Shown piece by piece: positions 5,472 through 49,678 of a DNA stretch of 64,000 bases. This stretch comes from Isoetes taiwanensis. Lineage: Eukaryota; Streptophyta; Lycopodiopsida; Isoetales; Isoetaceae. Made by a program: the position numbers and the translations under genes. Under the pieces are notes generated by a model, which saw nothing but the letters and a program-made list of their open reading frames with translations, made no database searches and was not told where the DNA came from. The stretch covers positions 470,523-534,522 of the forward strand of contig JAJEKV010000053.1 in assembly GCA_021234155.1 (NCBI GenBank), read 5' to 3'. Numbering within the stretch: the first letter of the stretch is position 1; every line of letters starts with the position of its first letter.

Positions 5472-5632
5472 ATGCTTGTTTGGCGTTATACCTAGTTGGG
5501 AGCAATATTATTTGCCTATTTAAAATTGGTCTTTATTGTAGTTTGAGATTTATACTTGTTTGGCGTTATACCTAGTTGGGAGCAATATTTGCCTATTTAG
5601 GTGGTCTTTTATTGTAGTTTGAGATTCATGAG
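5472..5632. repeat. Tandem duplication, about 80 bp unit
   Basis: Two head-to-tail copies contain 'cttgtttggcgttatacc', 'tagttgggagcaatatt', 'tgcctattta' and 'attgtagtttgagatt'. They are very similar, so the duplication is recent relative to its surroundings. Confidence 0.8.
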
Positions 5633-5639
5633 AGTCTTT

Positions 5640-6780
5640 ATCTTGTAGAGTCTCTTTTAACCCTTATTGTTAAAAATTCATATGGGCCATTTTCTTTTGC
5701 TTCATATTCTTATTTCTCTCAACTTTCTTGTGGGTCCAAAATTTTGTCATTGTTTTGAACAAAGGACATTGGGTTCAAGCTAAGAGGATTTGAATACTTT
5801 GCATCTTCTAATGTGATATTTCTTCTCAGGTTGTGTATATTATTGATTATTCCACCGAGGTTCATATGGTTTATAATTATGGCATAATGGATAATCATGA
5901 GTTTCTAGAGTACATTTTATATATTATTATGATGTTGGCTTCTTGCTCCTCTGCTAAATAGGCTTGTCTCCACTTGCTACCACAGGTATATTTGCCTCTA
6001 CATCCAAGCGTGACTAGTTTCTCTATTGTTCTTGAGAGTTTGGATGCTAATTATTTGAGTTTTATTGCTATTGGCGGATATTTTTGGATTCAGAATGGTT
6101 GAAATGCCTCGGATCCATGAAAGGCCTCGAATAGTGACATTGATTGCTTGAGTTGAGAGGAGTTTTTCTCAGATGGGTTTTGGTGTTGAGGGAGATTTGA
6201 TGATAGTTGTAGTCTACCCGGAGTAGTTCGCGATTACCTCGATACATGCTTTCTTGGCAAGCTTTTGGGGCGTTGTAGCTGGAACATGTAAAAAGCTGCA
6301 CATTACAGAGCGGATCAATCCAGCCGGTGAGTCCTGAAGACTACTGCGGACATATTTATGAAGGCGGACTCATTAGATCCATTACATACAGTGCTCCCGC
6401 AGCCTTCGCGTGAGGCAGGGTAGATGGATCCAGGAGGCGAGAGGGCGGAGGCTCATGCATGTTGCGGTGTTGGGAGGCTGTGAGAGCCCAGTGCCACACT
6501 CTTCAACAGCACTTGACATTTGGACCTAAATAGAGGCGTGCTTCTGAGTTGATTCTGCTGACGGTAGCTCCATGTGATGTTGCACACGACTTCAATGGGG
6601 ATCTTTGGGATCGTATCGGAGGTAATTGATATGCGCACTCCTATTGTGTCCTCGGCCTTCATTGATATATGTGTCATTATGCGGTTTGTGTGAGGCTTAT
6701 GCGCCAAGGTTTTCCCTCGAAACCGCGCCCGAGTGAGGTTTAATCACGAGGCGATAATGCTTACATTGCGCTCTCTCATT
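5640..6780. other. No gene recognised
   Basis: Short frames only. The part from about 6300 to 6780 is less AT-rich and leads into the TTCAA-type tail at 6821, so it could be the 3' end of an old non-LTR element. No reverse transcriptase motif is visible. Confidence 0.4.
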
Positions 6781-7194: not shown

Positions 7195-7485
7195 CGAGGG
7201 CGGCCACGAATCCAGATCACGAAAGGTATCCTGGTCTTATTAGTGATTAGATTTTTCCAAGCTTCTCATGGCCTTCAAATTTTAGAGAACTATTAGATCG
7301 CAGAAGCATCCCGAGGCGGCCATGCGTACTTAACATATCTCACACTTTCTTGCATTTTGAGAGTAATCCGCGAATCAAGATCTGAGAAGATATCCTTGGT
7401 CTTATTAGGTGATTCGATTTCCCAAGAAGCTTCTCATGGCTGGAGTAGATCTTGGAAACTCGAGGCGGCCATGCCCGGTATACGT
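7195..7485. repeat. Diverged tandem duplication, about 165 bp
   Basis: Two copies (from about 7200 and about 7365) share 'cgaatc-agatc', 'tatcc-tggtcttatta', 'gatt-gattt', 'cttctcatgg' and 'gaggcggccatgc'. The differences are mostly small indels. Confidence 0.7.
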
Positions 7486-7671
7486 ATCAAAGTTTTTCAT
7501 AGCCCTCAGCTCGAGACATATTTCCTCATTTTAGGAAGGTCACGCTCTTCAAATCAATTATGTAACGGCTTCTTTTCTTCCAACTTCCCCATTGTACTAG
7601 CGTGTCATAACAACGCATCATATTCTCCAAGCAATAGATTTCCTCAATACAGTGCAATGCACAAAAAGCGC

Positions 7672-7965
7672 GTAGAACATTTGGATTCCTTATAGCGAGG
7701 ATCTCAACACATTCGAAAGAGCTCAAAGGGATTCTTAAATGGCAATCTCCTATACCTTCCTTATTAGGCTCTTCTTGCTCGATTCATTTGGTTATGGATT
7801 TGGTAATCTAGTTTCATGCCGACAGAACATTTGGATTCCTTAACGGGATCTCAACACGATAGAAAGAGCTCGCGGGATTCTTCTATATGGCGATCTCCTA
7901 CACCTTCCTTATTGACTCTTCTTATAGGGTTTGGTGGACATGGATTTGGCCGTCCTAGTTTCATG
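7672..7965. repeat. Diverged tandem duplication, about 148 bp
   Basis: Two copies start at about 7673 and 7823 with 'agaacatttggattcctta' and share 'gatctcaacac', 'gaaagagctc', 'ggattctt', 'cgatctccta' or 'caatctccta', 'accttccttatt' and 'ctagtttcatg'. No protein match is recognised on either strand. Confidence 0.7.
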
Positions 7966-19397: not shown

Positions 19398-19790
19398 AAC
19401 TGAACGGAAGTACAATTGATNNNNNNNNNNNNNNNNNNNNNNNNNNNNNNNNNNNNNNNNNNNNNNNNNNNNNNNNNNNNNNNNNNNNNNNNNNNNNNNN
19501 NNNNNNNNNNNNNNNNNNNNNNNNNNNNNNNNNNNNNNNNNNNNNNNNNNNNNNNNNNNNNNNNNNNNNNNNNNNNNNNNNNNNNNNNNNNNNNNNNNNN
19601 NNNNNNNNNNNNNNNNNNNNNNNNNNNNNNNNNNNNNNNNNNNNNNNNNNNNNNNNNNNNNNNNNNNNNNNNNNNNNNNNNNNNNNNNNNNNNNNNNNNN
19701 NNNNNNNNNNNNNNNNNNNNNNNNNNNNNNNNNNNNNNNNNNNNNNNNNNNNNNNNNNNNNNNNNNACATTGTACTTCCGTTCAGTTGTG
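19398..19790. other. Assembly gap with inverted flanks
   Basis: 346 undetermined bases occupy 19421-19766. The last bases before the gap contain AACTGAACGGAAGTACAAT (about 19398-19416). The first bases after it contain the exact reverse complement (about 19769-19787). The gap is therefore bounded by an inverted repeat, and the right arm runs straight into the chromovirus LTR similarity at about 19791. Either a real palindrome was not resolved or two strands were misjoined. Confidence 0.8.
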
Positions 19791-26260: not shown

Positions 26261-26535
26261 ATTCAACCCTATTATGCGTCTATGTCCATCGGGCGGTTAG
26301 ATAAAGGCGTGCGCTAAGGAAAGCTCCTTTATGCGTCATTAGACTTGCCTCCATTGAGTCGAGATGCTAAAACGTAAGCAAGTAATCGATGCATTGCCGA
26401 GGGGATCGGGTCTTCTTCTCGGGAATTTGGTGATCTTTTTCCAGATAAGATCCAGAAGCTTCCTCCTTTTAGAGGGGTAGAATGTGAGATAGATTTAGAG
26501 CCGTACTAAGCCTACCCGGCAAGGCCCCATACCGT

Positions 26536-27740
26536 ATGAGTCCTCCAGAGTTGGCAGAGCTTAAGAAGCAACTTCAGGAGTTACTAAACCTAGGTTTCAT
26601 TCGACCTAGTAAGAAAAAGGATGGCTTCTTGAGGATGTGTATTGATTATCGGCAACTCAACAAGCATACCATCAAGAATCGCTATGCTTTGCCTAGAGCA
26701 GATGATCTAATGGACCAGTTGCAAGGGGCCAAATATTTCTCAAAGATTGATCTACGCTCCGGATACCATCAGATAAGGATTAAAGAGGAGGACATCCATA
26801 AATCTGCTTTTCGCACTAGATATGGGCATTATGAGTTTACCGTTATGCCTTTTGGATTAACTAATGCCCCTGCAACGTTTATGCGATTAATGAATGATGT
26901 CTTCCGACAATACTTGGATGATTTTGTTGTTATTTTCTTTGACGACATTCTCATCTATAGTAAGACCCTAGAGGAGCATGAAAAACACCTTCGGTTGGCC
27001 TTACAAAAGCTAAGATGTCATCAGCTCTTTGCCAAGTTCTCTAAGTGCAAGTTTGCCCTCGACTGGTCGATTATTTGGGCCATGTCATTTCGTGGGCAGG
27101 GGAATTGCTACAGATCCAAAGAAAGATAGAGGCCGTAGGGAATGGCCTATTCCGGAAATGTTTCGGGTCCAAGTTTTTCTTGGGATTAGCGAGGATATTA
27201 TCGAAATTTGTAAAGGATTTTGCAAAGATTGCGGCACCTCTTACAAATCTTACAAAGCATGAGAAGGTGAAGGATTGGATGGAACATTTGGAAGGCAAAG
27301 GTTCGTGCAAGTTTCCAGCGGCCTTTAAAGATGCCTTTAACGTCGCACCGATTCTCCACATTGCCCGATCCTCGAAAGGATAAACTAGTGGCGTGATTGC
27401 GAAGATTGCCACCGGTGGAGTCCTAATGTAGGAGGGGAGGGTTATTGCCTATGATTCAAAGAAAATGAACGAGGCGAGCAGCCATGCACCTACCCATGAT
27501 CGAATTGTTAGCCGTTGTCCGCGCCCCCCAGATATGGAGACACTACCTTCTTGGTAGAAGATTCCGCTTGATACGGATCATCAAAGTCTCCGTTATTTAT
27601 CCACCCAGACCAAATCTCAATCTCCGCCGAGAAGATGGATGGAATTTTTGGAGGAGTATGATTTTGAGATTATGTATAAACCCGGAAAGCACAATGTGGT
27701 TGCCGATGCGTTATCACGCCATCCCTTGATAACCCGAACC
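26536..27740 (+). pseudogene. Chromovirus reverse transcriptase and RNase H
   Basis: RT copies element RNA to DNA and RNase H removes the RNA strand. 26536 to about 27060 is clean and shows the canonical RT blocks: [45 protein letters not shown] and [12 protein letters not shown]. The catalytic box is FFDDILIYS, with both Asp present. From about 27057 the frame shifts several times. [25 protein letters not shown] and a 'REWPIPE' piece are spread over three frames. RNase H follows at 27380-27740 with GRVIAYDSKKMNEAS, TDHQSLRYLSTQTKS and the end motif VVADALSRHPL. The start Met at 26536 follows the usual PYRMSPPEL-like linker, so it is internal to Pol rather than a true start. Confidence 0.9.
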
Positions 27741-33890: not shown

Positions 33891-35035
33891 AGCCAAAAAG
33901 AAAATTCTATCCAATACCTGTAGATTTGTCAGAGATCAATCACTCTTGCATTGACATCATTCTATGAATCTAGTTAAATTTCAGCCAGCGGGCATGACCA
34001 TGAAAAAAAAATTATTCCTAGACAGAACACTCACAACGAGCTTCTGCTCATCCATCCAATCATCTGAATACAAAGAAATACTTGGAGCTGTTTGCCTTCT
34101 GATCCAGAAAGAGATGATTGATATTCACTAAGGATGGATGCCTATTGATTGAACACATTTTTTCTATAGAATTTTCTGAAGTGTATTACTGATTTTGTTC
34201 CAGGTGATGGGTATTACACTTTGCTTTAATGAATTAAGAATTAGAGCTTTGCGACAAGTTTATCTACTATCTTTGTGATGCATCATAAGTTAGCTAAAAT
34301 CTGAATTAGTTTCCTAAAAGTTATAGTTTCACATGCAGACGTACATGTTCTTTAGCCAAAAAGAAAATTCTTTCCAATACCTGTAGAGTTGTCAGAGATC
34401 AATCACCCTTGCATTATTCTATGAATCTAGTTAACTTTCAGCCAACGGGCCTCCTTCTGTCATGTACATGAAAGAAACCCATTGCTCGATGGCAAATGCT
34501 ACTTCATTCTTTTTTGCAGATCTATTATCTGAAATTAATCTAGAGAAACTGGCACCCTAATCTAATTATAATAATTTAGAATATGAGATGGATTATTTAT
34601 GTTTCCAACTTCCTTGCTTATTCCAGACATATACAACAGCAGGATGCCTACCATAACGTCTAATGTCACAACCACGGTGATAATGGAGGACTAGCAAGGT
34701 AGGCAGAGATGGTGGCCTAGTCTAAATTAATAATGCACAAACTGAGGCCTTTTAACCTAGATGCTAACTGATGTATTGTAACATAATCTGATCATGCTCA
34801 ATGTATCCATGACAATGTCATGAAAAGGTACCCTGGTAGTGCATAATCTGCACAACTCAAAACCATGGCCATGACTAAAAATTTCATCCTAGATAGAGCA
34901 TTGCTTGCAAACTGTACAAAATAGCTTCATAATGAAGCTTCTGCTCATCCAACCCTATGAGTAAAAGGAATACTTTTGGGGCATTGACATCATTCTATGA
35001 ATGCAATTAAATTTCATCCAGTGGGCCTACTTCTG
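33891..35035. repeat. Three diverged copies of a dispersed unit
   Basis: 'agccaaaaagaaaattct', 'ccaatacctgtaga', 'ttgtcagagatcaatca' and 'tctatgaatctagtta' followed by 'tttcagcca' occur at about 33890-34000 and 34355-34455. A third partial copy at about 34900-35035 shares the 'gcttctgctcatcca' and 'cattctatgaat' parts and ends in '-gggcctacttctgtcatg'. The spacing is roughly 460 and 550 bp. Confidence 0.65.
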
Positions 35036-35060: not shown

Positions 35061-35904
35061 CATTTTCAACTAGGAGTTTGGTTATTATTCTAGCTTTTAT
35101 GTTCGACAAAGTCTCTTCATTTCCTGCTCCTGTGCCTGTCGCGAAATCTCTAATGATATCAAGTTCGGGCACTGGATCTAGGAGATAATCCACCATGGTG
35201 GCTCCACCATCGCCGCCGTCGCTTCTGCAAGTGAAGCCCCCTGATCGCGGCCATCTGAGCATACCATTGCAGATCACCATGTCAAAGATCTGGCATAGCA
35301 GGACCAACTCTCTTCCAAAGGCTCCGGAGACTGTATCCTGGGAGCGTCTTGCATGCTGGGATGCCTCTTATTTCTAGCCAAAGTGGGTTGGAGTCAGCAT
35401 TTCCCTGAAAGATGACCGACTGCCACTGTGCTGTACGTGCATTCAAATCTCCTAATAAAAACACATGACCCTCACGGCGTCTTGCTCTATGTCATCATAC
35501 GGTTCCACAACAGGGCATATGCACATCTATATCCCGCCTCGATGAACCCTGTAGAACTTAGAATTTTCATGGGGTATATAACATCCTACAAGAAACAGTG
35601 GACGATGGTGAGGGCTGCGAGCACTTTCGTATCCACAGTAGCGGTTGAGTCTATCAGCCTTGTGGGCGAGACCGGTGGATGCTATAGCATCTTTGAAGTA
35701 GCACGCGATCCCTCCATACCTGGCTTGCCATGGCTCATTGGCCGGTGAGAAATGATAGTACACTGGGATGTCCGGTAACAGATGACCACTATATTTCCAT
35801 GTCTCTTGCAAGAAGATGATGTCCATTCCTGTAGCAATTTCAGCAATGCCCTCGCCGTGCTTCCAGGGAAATCCCCTACGGTTCCACGATACAATTGAAG
35901 GCAC
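35056..35904 (-). pseudogene. LINE ORF2, endonuclease domain only
   Basis: L1-type ORF2 nicks target DNA and reverse transcribes the element RNA. Only the N-terminal endonuclease/exonuclease/phosphatase domain is here, in three overlapping minus-strand frames. 35904-35527 starts with SIVSWNRRGF (Asn of motif I) and FLQETW (catalytic Glu). 35464-35282 has FLLGDLNART (Asp/Asn motif). 35307-35056 has a GGATMVDYLL segment near the domain end. The order and spacing fit the family. The reverse transcriptase that should follow at lower coordinates is missing, and the frame stops at the TCATG repeat. The start is a GTG in the ORF2 position, 5 bases after the ORF1 stop. Confidence 0.75.
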
Positions 35905-39584: not shown

Positions 39585-39588
39585 AAAT

Positions 39589-39610
39589 GGGTAAAAGCAC
39601 GCTGTGGTGT
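39589..39610 (+). repeat. Left terminal inverted repeat and TSD
   Basis: 22 bases matching the right terminus with one mismatch, preceded by the AAAT target duplication at 39585-39588. This is where the transposase would be expected to cut. Confidence 0.85.
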
Positions 39611-40998
39611 TCCAATTCGGCTGTCCCCACTGTCCCCCCAAAATATGGCGTTGCATCCACCACTTTTGTGGTATGAAAGTATAATTATGGCACCGCTCAG
39701 CTGCCGTTATTTAAGAATAGAGTCCCAATTTGTGGGGGAAATTCTAATTTCAAAAACTAAAATTCAAATTCCTATTATTTGGCCCCTTCCTGTTCTTTGC
39801 CTACGTCCTGTTCTTTGGCTCCCTCCCTGCTGCAAGCTCCAATCCATTGTGGATATGGATGTCAATGAGGTAATCTGTCCACAAACCGGCATTTCGCATG
39901 TGAGAAAACGAAGAAGAACCAAGGAACAAGAAATGTTGAAGAAAAGATGCCGAGGAAAAAGAAGAAGAGAAGAAAAATTGGAGCTTGCGAAATTGGCGAA
40001 GGATCCGTTCATCAAGAAGTGCAAGCAAGAAACGCCAGTATTGTCCTTAATTTGCTAATGTCTTTCCATAAACGACCAAAAGAATGGAGGATAGCATGAA
40101 GAAAGAAATTTTACTTGAGTTTTTGAGGATAAAACATTGGAAAAATTCATAGGTGAAGAATTAAAGGATTTAAGCCAAGAGCATCGTTATAAGGGGAGCC
40201 TCTAGGACGCCATGCAGACCGTCAAACTCTCTACCGAATGATATTTAGCTAGCCCAAGAATAGTCGCCCTTGCAATGTCCGGTACCTGCGCCGTGCGGTC
40301 TGAAAACAAGTGACAAAATCAGTCAGCGAGATCTTGGAAAGGTATTAGGTGTTCACCCAAGAAACCTGCGAAAGGCAAAGAAAAAGAGGGAAGAGATCGA
40401 TTACAATGGTGGGAAATGGGTTTCTTACAAGAGGGCTAAAAGATTCGATGCAATTTCAGATGAACATATAGAAAAGATTCAAAATTTTTGGATTGAGAAC
40501 ACCAGAGTGTCTCCTAACACAAAGAATATTAGAACTAGAAGATTGGAGAGAAATGTAAGAGAAGAACATGCTGCCCACTATCTGGAGGAATCACATGTTA
40601 GTTTATTTCTGTTATTCATGTTTTCTTAGCTATGGTGCTTAGTGTGGTGGTGCATGTGGTGGTTATTGTGTTGTACAGTGATTGTGGTGTACTGTATGCA
40701 GCATGTGAATTGTGTGTAGTTGACTCTAGTCTGAAATGCAATATTTAATGTTTGGAATATTAGAACATGACAGAATTGAGTACTCCTTTACTGGGTGTGT
40801 ATACAGTCTAAACATATTTGAGAATGATAGATAACTAACTGATCCTAAGAAGTACAAATTTTTGCTGAATAAAGACAAATTTTTGTCAGATTCAAGCACA
40901 GCTCTGTTGGAAAGTATAATATATTAAAAAAAGGATCTTACAAAATTTGGCTTTCCATTGAAAGCTCTGTACCCGAGAACTAAATTTACATGCATTTC

Positions 40999-41526
40999 CT
41001 AAGCAGCAGGAAATGCTGGTATGACTGGCTCGAGAACTGGTGCATCCAAAATTATTGTTTTCTGCACTAAAGCATCTAAGCTTTCTGCAGTCATCCCAGA
41101 ATTTAACAGGATGAGGTTTGCCAGTGCTTCCTGCATCCCCTGGTGGTAAGAACGCAACAGGATCACTAATTCCCGCTATTGCAGGCTCAGACCGGGCAAG
41201 TGACAGAGAACAAATAAACCAGCTGACCTTGCAGCAGCATGTAACATAAGGTCATGGACCTTGTCTAAGAGCTCACTTACTGTCAATTTGCACCCAAGCA
41301 TAGCCATTGAAGGCCCAGCATCCAGTCTGTTGTATGGCTTTAGGTTGGATTCGAAATCAGCAAAGAAGGTGGATTTACGCATTTCCACCTTCAGAGATCG
41401 GTCACGAGCCCTATTTAACATATGCCGAATGCCCTCCTCGCTCACCCTAGAATGGCCGTAGTGATCTCTGAACATATTCCCTACCGTTGCCGGAATGAAC
41501 TTGTTCGATTGGGAATGAAACGGCAA
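40999..41526 (-). pseudogene. Minus-strand ORF inside the transposase intron
   Basis: 176 codons on the minus strand with a single in-frame TAG (41176-41178). It is read as one protein because composition and frame continue smoothly on both sides of that stop. The N-terminal part has GNMFRDHYGHSRVSEEGIRH and RARDRSLKVEMRKSTFF. The middle has KLTVSELLDKVHDLMLHAAA. The C-terminal part (about 41170-40999) has RELVILLRSYHQGMQEALAN and ILDAPVLEPVIPAFPAA before the stop. It looks helical and soluble, with no domain recognised. It lies wholly within the transposase intron, antisense to it. It could be a third transposon gene or an exon of a captured gene. Confidence 0.5.
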
Positions 41527-41659
41527 AAATCAGACGCAGGAACAGGATTTAGGACCCAGATCCTTTTCTAATGATTAGAAGAGGAATGTAATTATTATCA
41601 GGGTGTACGAATTTCAGAAATGTTTATGAGAGCAGGCAGATTTTTTATGTCAGACGAAA

Positions 41660-42440
41660 TAGGATAAAAGTGATGTGATGTGATGTGTGGTGTGGTGTCG
41701 TGATGGTGTGGTGTCGTGGTGCTAAGCGTGGCGCGATGTGGTGTGGGGTGCGTTATGTCCATGGTGTCATGTGGGTGTGTGCATGTTAATGTATGATATG
41801 TGGGATTCAATTTTATTTATTCTCCCCTTACCCCACCACACCCCATCATCTATCCCACCACCATAGACTACCACCACATCTTTGCGACCACCACATTACC
41901 ACCACATGCACCACATTGTCCATTACCACCACACTCCACACATTCCACCATATCCCACACCACACTCCTCCACCACACTCCACCACCACCACCACACTCC
42001 CATGTACCACACTCCACCACCACCACCACTCAACCATGTACCACACCACACCCTCCACCACACTCCACCACCACCACCACACCACATCACACCACAATCC
42101 ACAACACCACACTACACCACCACCACCCCCCACCACACTCCACCACACCACACCACACACCACCACTCCACCATCCATCATACCACCACACACCACTACA
42201 CCCCCACCACCACCCCCACCACCCACCACCCTCCACCACCCCACCACCACCACACCCCCCACCCCCACCACCACACACCACTCCACCACCCACCACACTC
42301 CACCACCACTTCACACTCCACCATTTGGTGTATGGTGTATGGTGTGTGGTGGGGTGTGGTGTGGTGTGTGGTAATGTACACAACACTAAGGTGCTCGTTC
42401 TTGAATATGATGAGTGTGGGGCATAGTATGGTGCATGGTT
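41660..42440. repeat. CCACCA-type array with inverted flanks
   Basis: The core at about 41825-42312 is CCACCA/CCACAC-type on the plus strand. It is flanked by GTGGTG/GTGTGG-type sequence at about 41665-41745 and 42322-42375, so the array itself has inverted halves. It lies in the transposase intron. Long frames in all directions across it are repeat by-products, not genes. Confidence 0.9.
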
Positions 42441-44369
42441 TGGTGTGATATACACATCCTAACAGTTTAGTGTTCATTTCATGCAGATGCTATTGTTCAA
42501 GAGGTTTTACGGACCAACATCCAGAATTAAGATTCGTCTTTGAGCTTTTGAGAAGCTAAAACCCTGGTTTGTTGTGAAATTGAAGGACTTCAATAGTTCT
42601 TTGTTGCATTCAAAGACGTGAGGATGCAAATGCTAGTGGATGGACTCAATGGGATGAGAACCAAACATCCTAAGAATTGCACTTGCACCTGCGATGTTTG
42701 TAGATCACATGAACTTGGTCAATGCAGGGGCACACCGGATAAAATTGCAAAGTCTGAGGAAGCTTGTGGAGATCTATATTATGTCCAAAAGTGAATTAGA
42801 TGAGTTTCACAAGAAGGCGTGCATCCTTGGAGATTGTGGTTTGTGTGGAATCAAAGAGTTTAGGACTGCCCCATGGAAGAAAGTGGCGAATGAGGAAAGT
42901 GAAATGGGAGTACATTGACTATGAAAAAAGACAACGCCTCGAGTTACGTAGGAGACCCGACTCATCAGTACAATGAGACGAGGCAAAGAAATACGGATAA
43001 ACCGAAGAGCGTCTAAAAATCTTTCCATTGCATAATTTCCGGTACCAATGGCATGCAAAACAATTTAAGGAGCTTCTAGAGAATCTCCCGGCAGATGCAT
43101 GTCTTTTCGGTAGTGGATGTTGCGAGAACTATACATTCAAGAAACAAGAGGAGGTGCGGTCGATGCCTTTGGGTCAATAACGAGATTACCATTTTGGTTC
43201 AAATAACATATCGGTATGACTTCGATGGCGGATGAGATTATCAAGGAAACACATTACTATGTATCGGATGATAGGGAACACGATACTTTGTTAGGTGCAA
43301 CCTTTGCTTCATGAAGCACCACAAATATCACGGAAGCGAGAAAGGAAGGGTGCCAAAGAGACATTATGTGTTTTCGGATGGTGCGACATCTCAATTCAAG
43401 GCTTCTAGACCATTTTACTTTGTGGCTAGGTACACAAAAACGTCAGCGATGTCTATATGATGTGGAATTTTTTGGTTCTAACCACGGGAAAAGGTGAACA
43501 CGATGGCAAAGTTTCTTTGAGTTGAAGAGATGGTTAAGACAAGCGCAATTAAAATACAAATGTATAAAATTGGGTAATGCTCATGAAGTGGTAGAAGTTC
43601 TTTGAAGAGATGTTTACTTGTGGAACATCAAATGGATGAATACATCCAAAACCCGATAAGAGGAAGAATATAAAAAGGTTCTTTGGGAAGTCAAGGTGGA
43701 GGATATAGATAGAAAGAAAGTATGGGGTGCGAAAGGATTTTGGACACTAGGGCGATCCATTGTGTACATGCATTCAATCCTGAATCTCCATTCGCGATTG
43801 CACACGAGGGAACTTTCATGCTTCTCGCCGGCTCTTTGCTTGGATGGCATGTGGGACGATTGTGTGAACAAGCACTATGTTGATAATTGGAAACTTCAAG
43901 TTATTGTACCATCCTCCAATGTGCATCTTTGACATTGAGGGCCGTAAATCCAAAGAGTCCTTGTTCTCCTCCAATCCCACGATGTTAGCAGAGGCACTTA
44001 GAGTTGGTGATAATTTTGCTGTCGTTGCTCCGAAAGGGAATGATGAGGGTTCTGAATTTTGGATTCTAATGTGCACAAAACCAAAATGGATAGTGGAGAA
44101 AGACTTCCAACTCAATGGAACATGGTACCTCGCCGGTGATAGTGTCATAGAAGGTATGTATTACAAGAAGGGCCTTAGAATCAGCCGGCTTATGATCTTT
44201 GCGAAAAAAAGCGCCTTAGGCATAGTATTCACAACACGTCTGTGCAATCAGACTTCACATGCCACCAACTAAACGTCAAAACAGGACTGTATATAGGCTG
44301 GATCCTTTAGATGAGGAGAAAATTTTACGGAATTTACCCGAAGTTCTTTCTGATGATGATGAAATGTAA

Positions 44370-45625
44370 GACCATTCTGTAGTTTTCAGAACTCATGTGA
44401 AGTTTTGTGCTTCAGCTGTGAAAATGAGTTTGTCTTGATTTCTTTTGAAGATTTGAATTCTTCTGAACACTTGATTCCTTTGTTTGTGAGATGAATTGAA
44501 TATGAATTTTCATTCAAATGAATCGAGGTTACAATAACAATTATGTACATAAGAAAGATATACAGTGATTTAAAGTACGAGGTGACTCATGCACCTACAT
44601 ACTTCCCAATACATATGTTCCTCTCAGTTCCAGATTTTGTTGCTTATAATCTTAAAATTTCAAGCATGAACACTCTAACATCAACTAGATCCCGGGTGCG
44701 AAATGTCCACAACCCGCGGTTAACCACACTTTATCAATAACGAGTTTGGTTTCTCTCTTTGCATTTGAGTTGACTTACTAGATCGGACAACAATATATTC
44801 ACTCCTTTCAAGTACCCCCTCACAAATTTGTGCATAAACGGAACATCTGGCGGGCCACATGAATGACCATCGGTTTGAAGAAGGCGTTAAAATTTTCACA
44901 ACATCCGAGATTGTAAAGCTGAAATTATTGTGTCCAAGCAATTCTAGGAGCCCCATTCAAAGTTTGTTGTCATTGTGCCACAACAAAGAAAATGCAATGA
45001 GCAAGCACTAACCTCTCAATATGTGCCCTTACGCCATGCAAGCCCGAAAGCTATCAAAGTGATATATCCCCGGTTTATATCTGTGCGAGACACGCGTGGC
45101 TTACAATCGAAAAAAAGGTCCATGATGTCCATCACAAGCGTGCAAAAATATGTAACCGGCACTTATCCGATTCACATGTTTCCTTATTGTTTTATAACTA
45201 TTTGTGTTATTGGACAATGTCGAAAGAAAAAAGAGGTCAAAGAAATGAAAGGGATGGCTCATTCCTTGGGCATCAAGTAGTATTTCATGTATCCGCAAAC
45301 ATATGCATATGATGGCACAATCCCCGATGATCACAAATCAGATGAAAGTATCACCTTGAGAAGAGGAGGATCAATTGATCATTGAACCACCGCGTGATCG
45401 GCTTCCAAAATTTTGATGTCTGTGGAGCTAATCACGATAGTTTCAGTTCCACTCAAAGACCACTTCCAAATGTGTATTTGGCTTTAGATAGACGAGGGGG
45501 AGGCTAAGCTCTATCATCTCTAGTTCTAAACACACACGAGAACATTTGCTCACAATCCATTCAAATATTTTAAATTGAAAAAGTACAACACATATCATAG
45601 AATTTTTTTTTACTTATATTGACTT
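44370..45625. other. Convergent spacer between transposon genes
   Basis: Separates the 3' ends of the plus-strand transposase gene and the minus-strand FCP1-like gene. Minus-strand frames at 44956-44720 and 45334-45101 look mildly protein-like (RWSFMWPARCSVYAQICEG), but no motif is recognised. They could belong to the last exons of the minus-strand gene or be noise. Confidence 0.4.
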
Positions 45626-48600
45626 TCAAAGAGTTTTACAAGATTCATTTATGAAAATACTTGTCGAAAGCATTTTCATGCGGTTGATTCTTGACTCTTC
45701 AGAATCCCACATGTTCCACATTTGATGTTCCTTCACATAAGTCGGGCACACTTCGCAGCGAAGTCCCTCCACCCATGGTTTGAGTTGCTCCAAAAGGAAA
45801 TTGGAATCCAACCCGTCCGAGCAAAACTATTTGGACATATCATTGTGTTCTACCGGGTTGGCGTAAACCCTTATATCTGTTGTCATCTATCCACAATGTG
45901 TTTTTCACTTGGTATTTCGAGAATTTCGGTACACTTTGGACAGATCCTTAAGGGAAATTGGCTTATTAACCACTTTTAATTTTGTGTTGGTGCAGTCATC
46001 CTGATTCCAAATAAAAAGAAATCTGCCCTTATATTCCTGCAGCAACTTTCTCATCAACAAGTCAACATTACTCTTAGCCATGTTGGACCACAATGCAATT
46101 TCAAATTTTGAAAAATAACATTCTAAGAACTCCTGTAATCCAGGCCTGGAAACTGCTGCCTTTTGAAGGTTCAATTTCTGGAGGGACACTTCTGGCTCGG
46201 CCGATGCAGGGATCCTCTCTTTCAAGTCATAAAACTTGCCTAAAACCCCATTAAAATCCAGAACAAGGAGAATTTCAGTTAACCTCTTGGTTTTTCTTGG
46301 TTGAGGTTGTATTGGACTCGTTGAGCAGTCTGTATCTTGTCCAGGATCCGGGGTTTCTTTGTCAACTTCATCACCTGCATCCGCATTTTGGCTCATGTTC
46401 AGCTCCAAAACTTTTTTCTGGTGAAGGACCCCGGCCAGAATGAATCTCAAGGGAATTAATTTCCCCCCCCTAAAACAGATGCACTAGGAATCTCTTCGTG
46501 ATGGCTTCCAGTTGCAGTAGCATTTATCTCTGTAACATAATTGAAATGAGGAAGACCATAGAAAAATACAAAAAAATAAATCATGTATGTGGCATCGGTA
46601 CTTACTTGTTACGACTGCATTCAGTTCACTATCCAAATTTCGTTTTGGAGTCTCCACACCGTCAGCAGCTGGCATTGACTTAGAAGTATCAAATGGGGTG
46701 AATTCTAGGTACAACCGGGAGGTATCTTGCAGTCTCATAACTGATCGAGGCGTGGATAACTGTTGGATATCCTTGGTCTCAAATTTCTACAATTCTGCAA
46801 ACACTAAGTCGGGTAGGACCTGCGGACAACATCAGTAAACATTAGTTAAGGCACTTACTTGTGTCTATTGGTTCTTGTGATACCACTCGAACACCAAAAG
46901 CCAAAAGCCATGTCTCAGTCATAATGTGGACACAACTGGGGCTGCAGCAGGTTCTAGAGTGTCTGCAAAACAAATTCAAAATCAATAGAGTCTTTAGACG
47001 AGGGTTAGAGATGATAATATTTACCTCAAATGGTGTGATAGACATGGAATGTGATATTGGTGGCGCATTCGCTATCACAACCGGCAACATTTTACCCTCC
47101 CATTTTAATACACGTCCACAAAATGGACAACCTTCATCACCCTCTTTTTCAAGGCCAGAAGCATTGAAAGTGCGATCTAAAGGAGGTCATGACCACTACG
47201 CCGGAAAAATCTCAAATCTTTGCATTCGAGGTTGCGGCTCCAGCAAGAAGTCTTCACATGCCTTTAGCTCAATTTCAGTTTACGCGGTTCCTTATTTAAC
47301 TGATTCATCCCGAGGCAAACACCGCACCATTTAGCTCTTCATTCTTTAGTTCGCTACAACCCCAACACCCTCTGGCCGCTTTTCGATTTGTTGTTATGAT
47401 TGATTGCCATCCATGCAAATCAGCTCTAATTTCCGATGTTTTATGCCCATCAACTCAATCTTTCTTTTGATATCATTTTTCCTATCCTCCTTTGCTTGCA
47501 ATCATTGCTTGCATCTATCAAACCTAGCTGATGTTGCAGCCAACCATTCCTTCACAAGTCCGCCATAGTCTCCAAAACAAAACACTACATATATGTCGAC
47601 CTCCTAACATAGTAAACCCGCGTCTTTGATGGAAAAAACCACAATCACACACCACACAACACAAGGTACTCTCTACACACCACCACATACCACACACCAC
47701 ACAACATATGCTGCACAGTACACACCACACAACACGCTGTGGTGGTAGCAAGGAGTGGTGGGACATTGTGTAGGGTGGTGAAGTGTGGTGGTGTGTGTGG
47801 TGGTGGTGGTGGGGTTTGGTGGTGGTGGTGGTGGTGGTGGTGGTGGGGTGTGTGGTGGTGGTGGAGTGTGGTGTGGGACATGGTGGAGTGTGGTGGTGGT
47901 GGATTGTGGTGTGGGACATGGTGGATTACGGTGGTGTGGTGTGGTGGTGGTGGATTGTGGTGTGGGACATGGTGGAGTGCAGTGGGTGTGGTGTGGTAGT
48001 GGTGGAGTGTGGTGGTGGTGGTGGAGTGTGGTGGTGGTGGAGTGTGGTGGAGGGGTGTGGTGTGGAAAATGGTGGAGTGTGGCAGTGGGAGATGGTAGAG
48101 TGTAGTGGTGGGAGATGGTGGGGTGTGGTGTGGGACATGGTGGATGCCAACAACTCACCACTCACCCGGACCACACACATACCTCATCTATCATTCGGCA
48201 TCCATTGCAACGAAATGCCCCACAGATGGCATCATAGAGACACAACATGACAATACAAACATGATGCAAAATGGTAGTAGACATGCCTGATTCTTGAAGT
48301 GGATTTGATGTTACCTTTTCTGTGTTGATAGAAACAATCTAGGTCAAGCTTGAGATTTTTTTCTGTTGTAACACAACTAATAATTGAACATACCTGCAAT
48401 GGCATGTTTTGGCCTCAGAACATTGCTCTGCTTTTCTATTTTGATTGTGAGTTCAGATTGAATGTGTGGTCTAGAGGAACCTGATTTGGTTTTTTCTTTA
48501 TCATCTTCATCATCTTTGTCACTTTTACTATTTTCCTCCTGGTCAGGTTGGATTTGCCTATGCTTTCTCTTGGGTCTAGAAGAACTGGCCTCTCGCTTTC

Positions 48601-48959
48601 GTCGGTTTTATAATAATCCGGAAGCTCTTCCAATTAACGACCTCCCCTTTATATGTGTAATAAGCCAACGCCGAGTTCCGAGAGCCATTCCACCCCATGT
48701 ATGTGGCTTCCCTGTAATTCTTTTGTAAATTTGCATGAACTCTTTGTATTGTTCATTGCTCAGATTCTTCAACCTGTAACATATGCCTTAATTTTTCAGT
48801 TTGAACAAAAACATTTGGGGGAAAATACCTGTAGCCAGATTTATTTGGAACTCTGTCACCCCAAAGCTTCTTTAGATCTTCATGGGCACAATCTCTTGTT
48901 TGAGGAGAGATTTCATCGTGTAACCAGTGGCATTCAATTCTGACTCCATTAGAGTTCAA
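45626..48959 (-). pseudogene. Transposon gene with FCP1/NLI-like HAD phosphatase domain
   Basis: Multi-exon minus-strand gene convergent with the transposase. From the 5' end: RIECHWLHDEISPQTRDCAH and WGDRVPNKSGYR (48950-48826); YKEFMQIYKRITGKPHTW and a charged linker (about 48770-48400); donor CAG/GTATG at about 48394; an intron with the CCACCA array; FGDYGGLVKEWLAATSARFD (about 47570); cysteine pairs KWCGVCLGMN and GCPFCGRVLKWEG (about 47310 and 47110). The C-terminal HAD domain (46450-45905) has VLDFNGVL, SRPGLQEFLECYF, IALWSNMAKSN and FIWNQDDCT, then LWIDDNRYKG in the next frame (about 45890). The last frame ends at 45626. Introns of 76 bp (46530-46605) and possibly 39 bp (about 46821-46859) have GT-AG ends. 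The second Asp of the FCP1 DxDx(T/V) motif is Asn, so phosphatase activity is doubtful. A G8 run near 46466 and a base near 45930 shift the frame. The 5' start codon is uncertain. Confidence 0.7.
47640..48180. repeat. TGGTGG-type array in FCP1-like gene intron
   Basis: Plus strand is CACCACA-type at about 47640-47735 and TGGTGG/GTGTGG-type at about 47738-48140. In the sense of the host gene (minus strand) the main block is CCACCA-type, the same sense as the array in the transposase intron, so the two arrays are inverted copies 5.3 kb apart. Frames across it are not genes. Confidence 0.9.
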
Positions 48960-49156
48960 TCGGCAAGAAGCGGCAAAAAAACAGAAGAAGAGGGGATTAT
49001 TTCTTAATTCAAAATGAGGGACAATGACGTGGCATAAAATTCAAAATAACCGACGCTCATTAATTCGCACTCCCGCAATCTCCGCTTCGGTATGCACCAC
49101 CCGATTCTACCACAAAGTGGGTGCCAAAATGTGGCGTCAAAATGCGTGTTTTTGAT

Positions 49157-49178
49157 ACACCACATCGTGCTTTTACCC
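49157..49178 (-). repeat. Right terminal inverted repeat and TSD
   Basis: Plus strand ends CGTGCTTTTACCC, the inverse of the left end, followed by the AAAT target duplication at 49179-49182. The segment between the first exon of the minus-strand gene and this end (48960-49156) would hold that gene's promoter. Confidence 0.85.
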
Positions 49179-49182
49179 AAAT

Positions 49183-49678
49183 CTATTTAAGTTATCGTTA
49201 GGTGGAGGTACATCTTTCAATTTAAAATGCTAAATAAGGATAGATAAGATGTCGCTGCATGTTATCTTTTTTGCCTTTGCATGCCATAATCCACGGGAAG
49301 ATATTCTAAAAGCAGTGATCCAAGTCCTGAACCAATTCCTCCACCAACGAAGTTAAAAATCAAAAACCCTTTTAGAACAAAGCAATTGTTTGCCAATTTT
49401 TTATTCCATCAAGGCAAAAGTGCAATTGTTTGCAAGCTTTGCAAGTTCCATGGTAGACTATGCCCGTAAAGCGTTGCCTAATCATCTTCAAGCTATACTA
49501 TTCCATTTGAAAATAATAAGTGTTTAGTTGAAGAAACTAGTGGCTTTTTTCATCAGAAAGTAGAAAGGTGCAAACAGTATTAGTATTTTTGTATCACTTG
49601 ACATGCTTATACTTGACATACTTTTTTCTTTCTTAGGTAGGTTGTAAACCTTAGGAACAAAGAGGAAAAATAGAGATG
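49183..49678. other. Spacer, no gene recognised
   Basis: About 500 bases between the transposon end and the right direct repeat. AT-rich, with no motif. Confidence 0.5.

Follow-up and report, generated by a model that had tools for sequence, protein, structure and literature searches.

The segment at positions 39589-49178 of a 64-kb stretch of Isoetes taiwanensis DNA (contig JAJEKV010000053.1, positions 470,523 to 534,522; hereafter the window) is a cut-and-paste DNA transposon with a 4-bp target-site duplication. We consider it likely that the segment belongs to a two-gene family with many copies, probably a lineage of the Sola superfamily, in which the transposase gene is accompanied by a convergent FCP1-like gene kept by selection. 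The original prediction, made from the window alone, had described a transposon that duplicates 4 bp of its target and has an unusual set of genes, and in this respect it is supported by the results below.

The element is bounded by 22-bp terminal inverted repeats (TIRs) in which 21 of the 22 bases pair, GGGTAAAAGCACGCTGTGGTGT on the left (39589-39610, plus strand) and GGGTAAAAGCACGATGTGGTGT as the reverse complement of the right end (49157-49178, minus strand). AAAT abuts both outer edges (39585-39588 and 49179-49182), so that the predicted inverted termini with one mismatch and the AAAT on either side were found as described. Inverted 22-mer pairs with at most one mismatch and a spacing of 0.2-30 kb number 101 in the 64 kb, and five of them survive a low-complexity filter: two represent the TIR pair in two registers, and three come from GTGGTG/CCACAC arrays. 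After this filtering, the TIR pair is the sole such inverted pair in the window outside the arrays. For the 12-bp tip of the TIR, the window holds no third match with at most one mismatch and three others with two mismatches, five matches in all against a chance mean of 4.87. Further inside, the subterminal motif CCACTTTTGTGGTATGAA (39660-39677, plus strand) has an imperfect counterpart at the right end, CCACTTTGTGGTAGAA in the minus-strand reading (49105-49120), and the score of this shared motif was reached by 5 of 500 shuffles.

The presence of second copies with matching termini had been set beforehand as a test of the element, and such copies were found. When the left 116 bases were compared with the host genome (1,658,258,908 bases in 1110 contigs), at least 40 places were scored among 480 candidates: that of the window itself, at 100%, and 39 further ones at 97-98%. 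Twenty of these 39, picked for their left end, were fetched as segments of 10 kb each (L009-L028), eight of them with short extensions. In all 20 the common sequence starts at the identical GGG, at the same boundary as the left TIR of the window, and the flanks differ. A clear right end was recognised in six, and each of the six carries a perfect 4-bp duplication of its own (TCAT, TGAT, TTAT, TATT, GCTT and GTGG); the lengths of these two-ended copies range from 9,582 to 11,179 bp. In the other 14 a clear right end was not found; they include L011 and L017, whose weak right-end pattern matches lack a duplication and were taken as degenerate (six of eight, if they are counted). The sample is biased toward AAAT-like flanks, because matches running into the flank score higher; even so, 15 of the 40 left-end matches begin at query base 5 and hence have a base other than T before GGG (one duplicated stretch accounts for two of these 15). 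Over aligned stretches of at least 100 bases, the copies are 79-97% identical to the window element. The family would have dozens of copies or more, each 9.6-11 kb long. A candidate short derivative (L038, C907:40535661-40537760) was rejected: it is a 99% direct duplication with two left ends 1.8 kb apart rather than a short element, due either to tandem duplication or to an error of assembly.

The transposase-like gene claimed inside the element is present on the plus strand, with 23 homologous sequences (P0001-P0023; best E 4e-104, 29-42% identity), including KFL_005820050 of Klebsormidium nitens. Its N-terminal exon (40264-40596) lies in a stop-free frame, 40264-40629, the coding end being set at the GT donor at 40597, and is matched in tblastn by the Klebsormidium sequence P0006 (38% over 40324-40599, E 1e-11). 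The P0006 matches continue across a predicted GT...AG intron (40597-42486), which contains a microsatellite of the CCACAC type (about 41.8-42.3 kb), into the main exon (42487-44369) with a Cys cluster, an RNase H core and a C-terminal beta-rich domain. An RNase H/integrase-like core is predicted for the homologue family, the integrase matches being obtained in a second look by VIA-align. The codons of the presumed first and second catalytic Asp, in VVD and SDG, are at 43116-43118 and 43377-43379, and the candidates for the third catalytic residue are the Glu and Asp of GKGEHDG (E329 or D331; 43496-43504). By its homologues and this core, the gene on the plus strand codes for a transposase of the DDD type, with presumed catalytic residues. 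Profile searches did not name a superfamily: no transposase model was matched in a six-frame Pfam scan of the element, where only NIF rose above the cut-off (DUF6264, E 0.59, fell under it), or by the homologues submitted to Pfam (10 of 23) and NCBIfam (2 of 23). Two weak matches were not used, DUF6597 in P0003 (E 0.00024, 21.6 bits against a cut-off of 27), the best of those in the transposase part, and Spindlin-1 (E 0.63), the only PDB match of the transposase profile by sequence; P0006 also carries leucine-rich repeats according to Pfam. With the transposase alignment, neither IMG/VR (41 pattern matches) nor the GTDB prokaryote genomes (50 pattern matches) gave a confirmed relative. Among the fetched copies, L027 has the transposase in a single frame along residues 1-603 of P0001, with eight stops.

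The second gene runs on the minus strand, and the predicted convergent, multi-exon gene with cysteine motifs and an FCP1-like HAD domain was recovered. Its last exon (45640-46520) encodes an FCP1/UBLCP1-like HAD domain that matches Pfam NIF with 30.3 bits (E 4e-7) in the raw frame and 46.5 bits (E 4e-12) when read through, the cut-off being 21.8 bits. The same model is matched in L019 (59.1 bits, E 5.5e-16), L027 (52.4 bits, E 6.3e-14) and L023 (36.6 bits, E 4.6e-9), and the nearest PDB entry by sequence is UBLCP1 (3shq), at E 0.011 with the read-through and E 0.00019 with L019. By tblastn the NIF exon was found in 14 of the 20 copies, 13 of them in the expected orientation (including the diverged L027), with L019 inverted in an apparently different fragment; in the six copies without a match, alignment to the element stops before the NIF region. 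As assembled, the gene is broken by stops or frame changes in most copies, and longer open frames are found in L019 (218 residues) and L023 (264 residues). Upstream exons are placed tentatively at 46610-48950; CxxC pairs lie at about 48.2 and 47.1 kb, a GTGGTG microsatellite at about 47.8-48.1 kb is taken as intronic, and the part of these exons that was tested gave no Pfam match above the cut-off. The CCACAC and GTGGTG arrays, one in an intron of each of the two convergent genes (the second by the tentative gene model), are complementary and form long imperfect inverted repeats.

The main evidence for the FCP1-like gene having been kept by selection within these elements comes from copy L027, in which the match to the window family ends at 5781 and a diverged sister sequence follows. 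An open transposase C-terminus (open reading frame (ORF) 5621-6535; 34% to residues 387-582 of P0001, no stops) is followed there, on the opposite strand, by a NIF ORF (7198-7923), an acidic ORF with GRPSKK and a further ORF that has a Cys/His cluster and resembles a coiled coil. The sister thus shares with the window family the order of transposase followed by convergent NIF gene. The sister NIF protein shares 42 of 105 amino acids with that of L023 and 49 of 129 with that of L019 (37-40%), at nonsynonymous divergences (dN) of 0.58 and 0.66, and the synonymous divergence (dS) is 3.9 for the former and not computable, that is saturated, for the latter. Because the gene occupies the same convergent place at such dN and with saturated dS, it would have been kept by selection for long as part of the element, and it looks like a lasting component rather than a recent passenger. 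Further right in L027 a gag-like zinc-knuckle ORF was noticed by eye.

The canonical motif I of active FCP1/SCP phosphatases is DxDx(T/V), and WS, K and DD are further named motifs of FCP1/SCP-type HAD phosphatases. In the window and in L017, L020, L023 and L028 motif I has the sequence LDFNGVL, and in L026 LNFNGVL (5 of the 20 copies matched the motif); the sister reads VNTF at this position and retains WS, K and DD; the active-phosphatase form is found neither in the window lineage nor in the sister. Loss of the second Asp, together with that of the nucleophile Asp in the sister, points to binding more than to catalysis, which suggests that the FCP1-like protein is a pseudophosphatase.

The element had been called complete, and this holds for its structure, that is, the ends and the duplication, and fails for its genes, whose frames are broken many times in the transposase and at least twice in NIF as assembled. 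Outside microsatellites, the copies differ from the window by 8,068 substitutions in 117,502 aligned bases (6.9%) and by 3,187 indels, 2,164 of which are of one base; 275 of the one-base indels fall in homopolymers of at least four bases, and most lie elsewhere. The ratio of indels to substitutions is about 0.4 among L009-L028, mostly owing to indels of 1-2 bases, and we judge this share of small indels to be unusually high. Repeats in Nanopore assemblies can retain uncorrected indels, and Nanopore indels may explain part of the frame breaks. The assembly (1658.30 Mb, 204 scaffolds and 909 contigs) was built from Nanopore and Illumina reads, with pilon polishing during gap filling, as stated in the cited part of its description (PMC8566536). 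Judged by its sequence, the window copy is either a structurally complete relic or a copy damaged in assembly, and is not demonstrably active. A codon-position test of all copies against the window frame proved unusable: p3/p12 ranged over 0.00-5.24 in the presumed exons and 0.71-1.18 in two controls, each read in three frames. Broken frames, and the origin of most differences after insertion, account for these mixed signals.

Several results weigh against a two-gene Sola family with a selected FCP1-like gene. The placement in Sola was set by description, and of the seven duplications only AAAT fits AWWT, the form given for Sola2 in the cited passages of PMC3627910, whereas TTAT, TATT, TCAT, TGAT, GCTT and GTGG do not. 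Foldseek with the whole transposase model returned nothing at E 0.001, its top rows being mostly Argonaute and NurA structures with a query TM of at most 0.15. In the window copy, the transposase main exon shows 14-19 frame changes and the NIF frame is interrupted twice or more. Within the lineage, transposase dN is close to dS in the larger comparisons (for instance 0.143 and 0.158), which speaks for decay more than for constraint, so that the case for constraint rests on the comparison between lineages. In that comparison the sister is represented by one truncated locus, and no termini could be recognised in 14 kb of its sequence. No homologue of the full minus-strand gene was found among proteins at E 0.001 (7,998 best-sharing candidates, a list probably flooded by the acidic stretch), and none of the NIF part alone at E 1 (410 candidates).

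The FCP1-like gene might instead be a captured host gene that is merely carried, as Pack-type or transduplicated cargo. NIF proteins are eukaryotic host genes and plant transposons often capture pieces of genes, and the broken state of the gene in most copies agrees with such an origin. We nevertheless hold capture to be quite unlikely, given that a sister with 37-40% amino-acid identity, saturated dS and a dN of 0.58-0.66 carries this domain in the corresponding convergent position, and that L019 and L023 retain their open frames. Much the same low probability is given to the sister being a chance neighbour or an assembly chimera, which would leave the two-gene arrangement in one lineage only. 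The switch at 5781 and the missing left and right ends of the sister part would fit a chimera; the sister part by itself, independently of the junction, has a transposase C-terminus followed by the convergent NIF gene.

As for the superfamily, membership in Kolobok, the Kyakuja-Dileera-Zisupton (KDZ) type or another known group appears highly improbable. KDZ-type elements are large and have a Cys-rich transposase and extra genes, features that recall the present element; their duplications are of 8 bp, in contrast to the 4 bp of the window and the six copies. Pfam holds a KDZ model, and no KDZ name appears among the matches at E of at most 1 of the 10 homologues scanned or the six frames of the element, though a distant relation could escape. 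A 4-bp duplication is also reminiscent of Kolobok, which duplicates TTAA according to the cited part of PMC9587614, a sequence seen in none of the seven two-ended copies. An undescribed superfamily outside Sola, with 4-bp duplications at loose targets and an FCP1-like gene next to that of a DDD transposase, is a more serious competitor, if still an unlikely one. It would accord with the lack of a matching transposase model for the homologues scanned, with the misfit to AWWT and with the 15 left-end matches without T before GGG; it is opposed by the 4-bp duplication, the DDD triad, the imperfect TIR of about 21 bp, the size and the occurrence in moss, all of which fit Sola as portrayed in the cited portions of PMC10741241 and PMC3627910. 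Because of the duplication length, the DDD triad, the TIR length, the size and the moss report, Sola is the best available fit. The Sola-type assignment offered by the original prediction stands to this extent as an inference; where it falls short is in the single AWWT duplication among seven.

Around the observed ends, duplications and copies and the predicted fold of the transposase, we infer the following steps for the two-gene family. The plus-strand DDD transposase, with its Cys-rich N-terminal part and beta-rich C-terminal domain, would bind the 22-bp ends, excise the element and reinsert it with a 4-bp stagger, and gap repair after the staggered insertion would yield the 4-bp duplication. 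The FCP1-like protein would act by binding, perhaps as a phosphopeptide-binding adaptor that ties the transposase or the chromatin of the element to host transcription or proteasome complexes. If this explanation is true, transposons of the cut-and-paste kind are able to rely on a protein resembling phosphatases, in a family probably present in a lycophyte; where repeats in Nanopore assemblies have broken frames, moreover, these may be sequencing errors. A bolder version, which we put forward as speculative and rather improbable, holds that this is a two-gene lineage of DNA transposons in plants and algae, which might form a separate superfamily. In it a DDD transposase would have as its obligate partner an FCP1-like pseudophosphatase, containing zinc-binding and coiled-coil parts, that links transposition to phosphosignalling at the C-terminal domain of host RNA polymerase II or at the proteasome.

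A possible third gene, an antisense ORF of 117 amino acids within the predicted transposase intron, is present where it had been described (41179-41529, minus strand). It is matched by tblastn in 19 of the 20 copies, often with stops; seven versions chosen as more open, the window's included, have a mean dN of 0.151 and dS of 0.257, and a window scan of the minus strand gave no Pfam match. These comparisons point only weakly to a coding gene. The description of a three-gene cargo does not fit: the plus-strand gene is the transposase itself, the FCP1-like gene recurs in other copies and in the sister, and the antisense ORF is a weak candidate.

About 100 bp to the right of the insertion, a fragment resembling the tubulin GTPase domain lies on the minus strand (49286-49399; Pfam Tubulin E 0.0011, under the cut-off), followed at about 49.5-53.8 kb by a Ty1/copia-like retrotransposon, also on the minus strand, whose gag, pre-integrase, integrase and SH3-like matches are spread over several frames. 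To the left, weak matches under the cut-offs to an OPT transporter and an endonuclease/exonuclease/phosphatase are found on the minus strand (34633-34902 and 35584-35847), and a plus-strand ORF resembling, by eye, a Ty3/gypsy reverse transcriptase (26488-27129) lies in a block richer in G+C at about 20-31 kb. The window contains a run of 346 N (19421-19766), and Rfam and tRNA scans of its 64 kb returned nothing.

Among titles and the beginnings of abstracts from paper searches aimed at such an element and at Sola (subscription papers and Repbase lay outside this scope), no transposon carrying a gene for a NIF, FCP1 or phosphatase protein was encountered. The composite-like KolobokP transposons resemble the element in that they are eukaryotic DDD/E transposons and also contain a gene for a second enzyme; in the cited part of PMC9587614, Kolobok targets TTAA and the second gene of KolobokP is a His-Me finger homing endonuclease. 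The FCP1/SCP/UBLCP1-type HAD phosphatases share with the minus-strand product the domain match, which extends across the WS, K and DD motifs (Pfam NIF; PDB 3shq), and differ in that motif I of the element is degenerate and the gene sits in a transposon. KFL_005820050 of K. nitens and the 22 further sequences belong to the same transposase family, and Klebsormidium has kept the same N-terminal part; this comparison is by protein alone. With Sola and Sola2 the element has in common the 4-bp duplication (window and all six copies with a clear right end), a DDD transposase with an RNase H fold, present in the homologue family with presumed catalytic roles and E329 or D331 as third residue, short imperfect TIRs (12-21 bp in Sola) and a large size (Bao and Jurka 2013, PMC3627910, in the passages cited). 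It differs from Sola2 in that its duplications mostly depart from AWWT and in the nature of the extra gene, an FCP1-like HAD rather than Fanzor. Sola is apparently uncommon in flowering plants and is reported from moss, as given in the cited part of PMC10741241, and extra captured genes are likewise a trait of Sola2, the slime-mould Sola2 having Fanzor1 in the cited section of PMC3627910.
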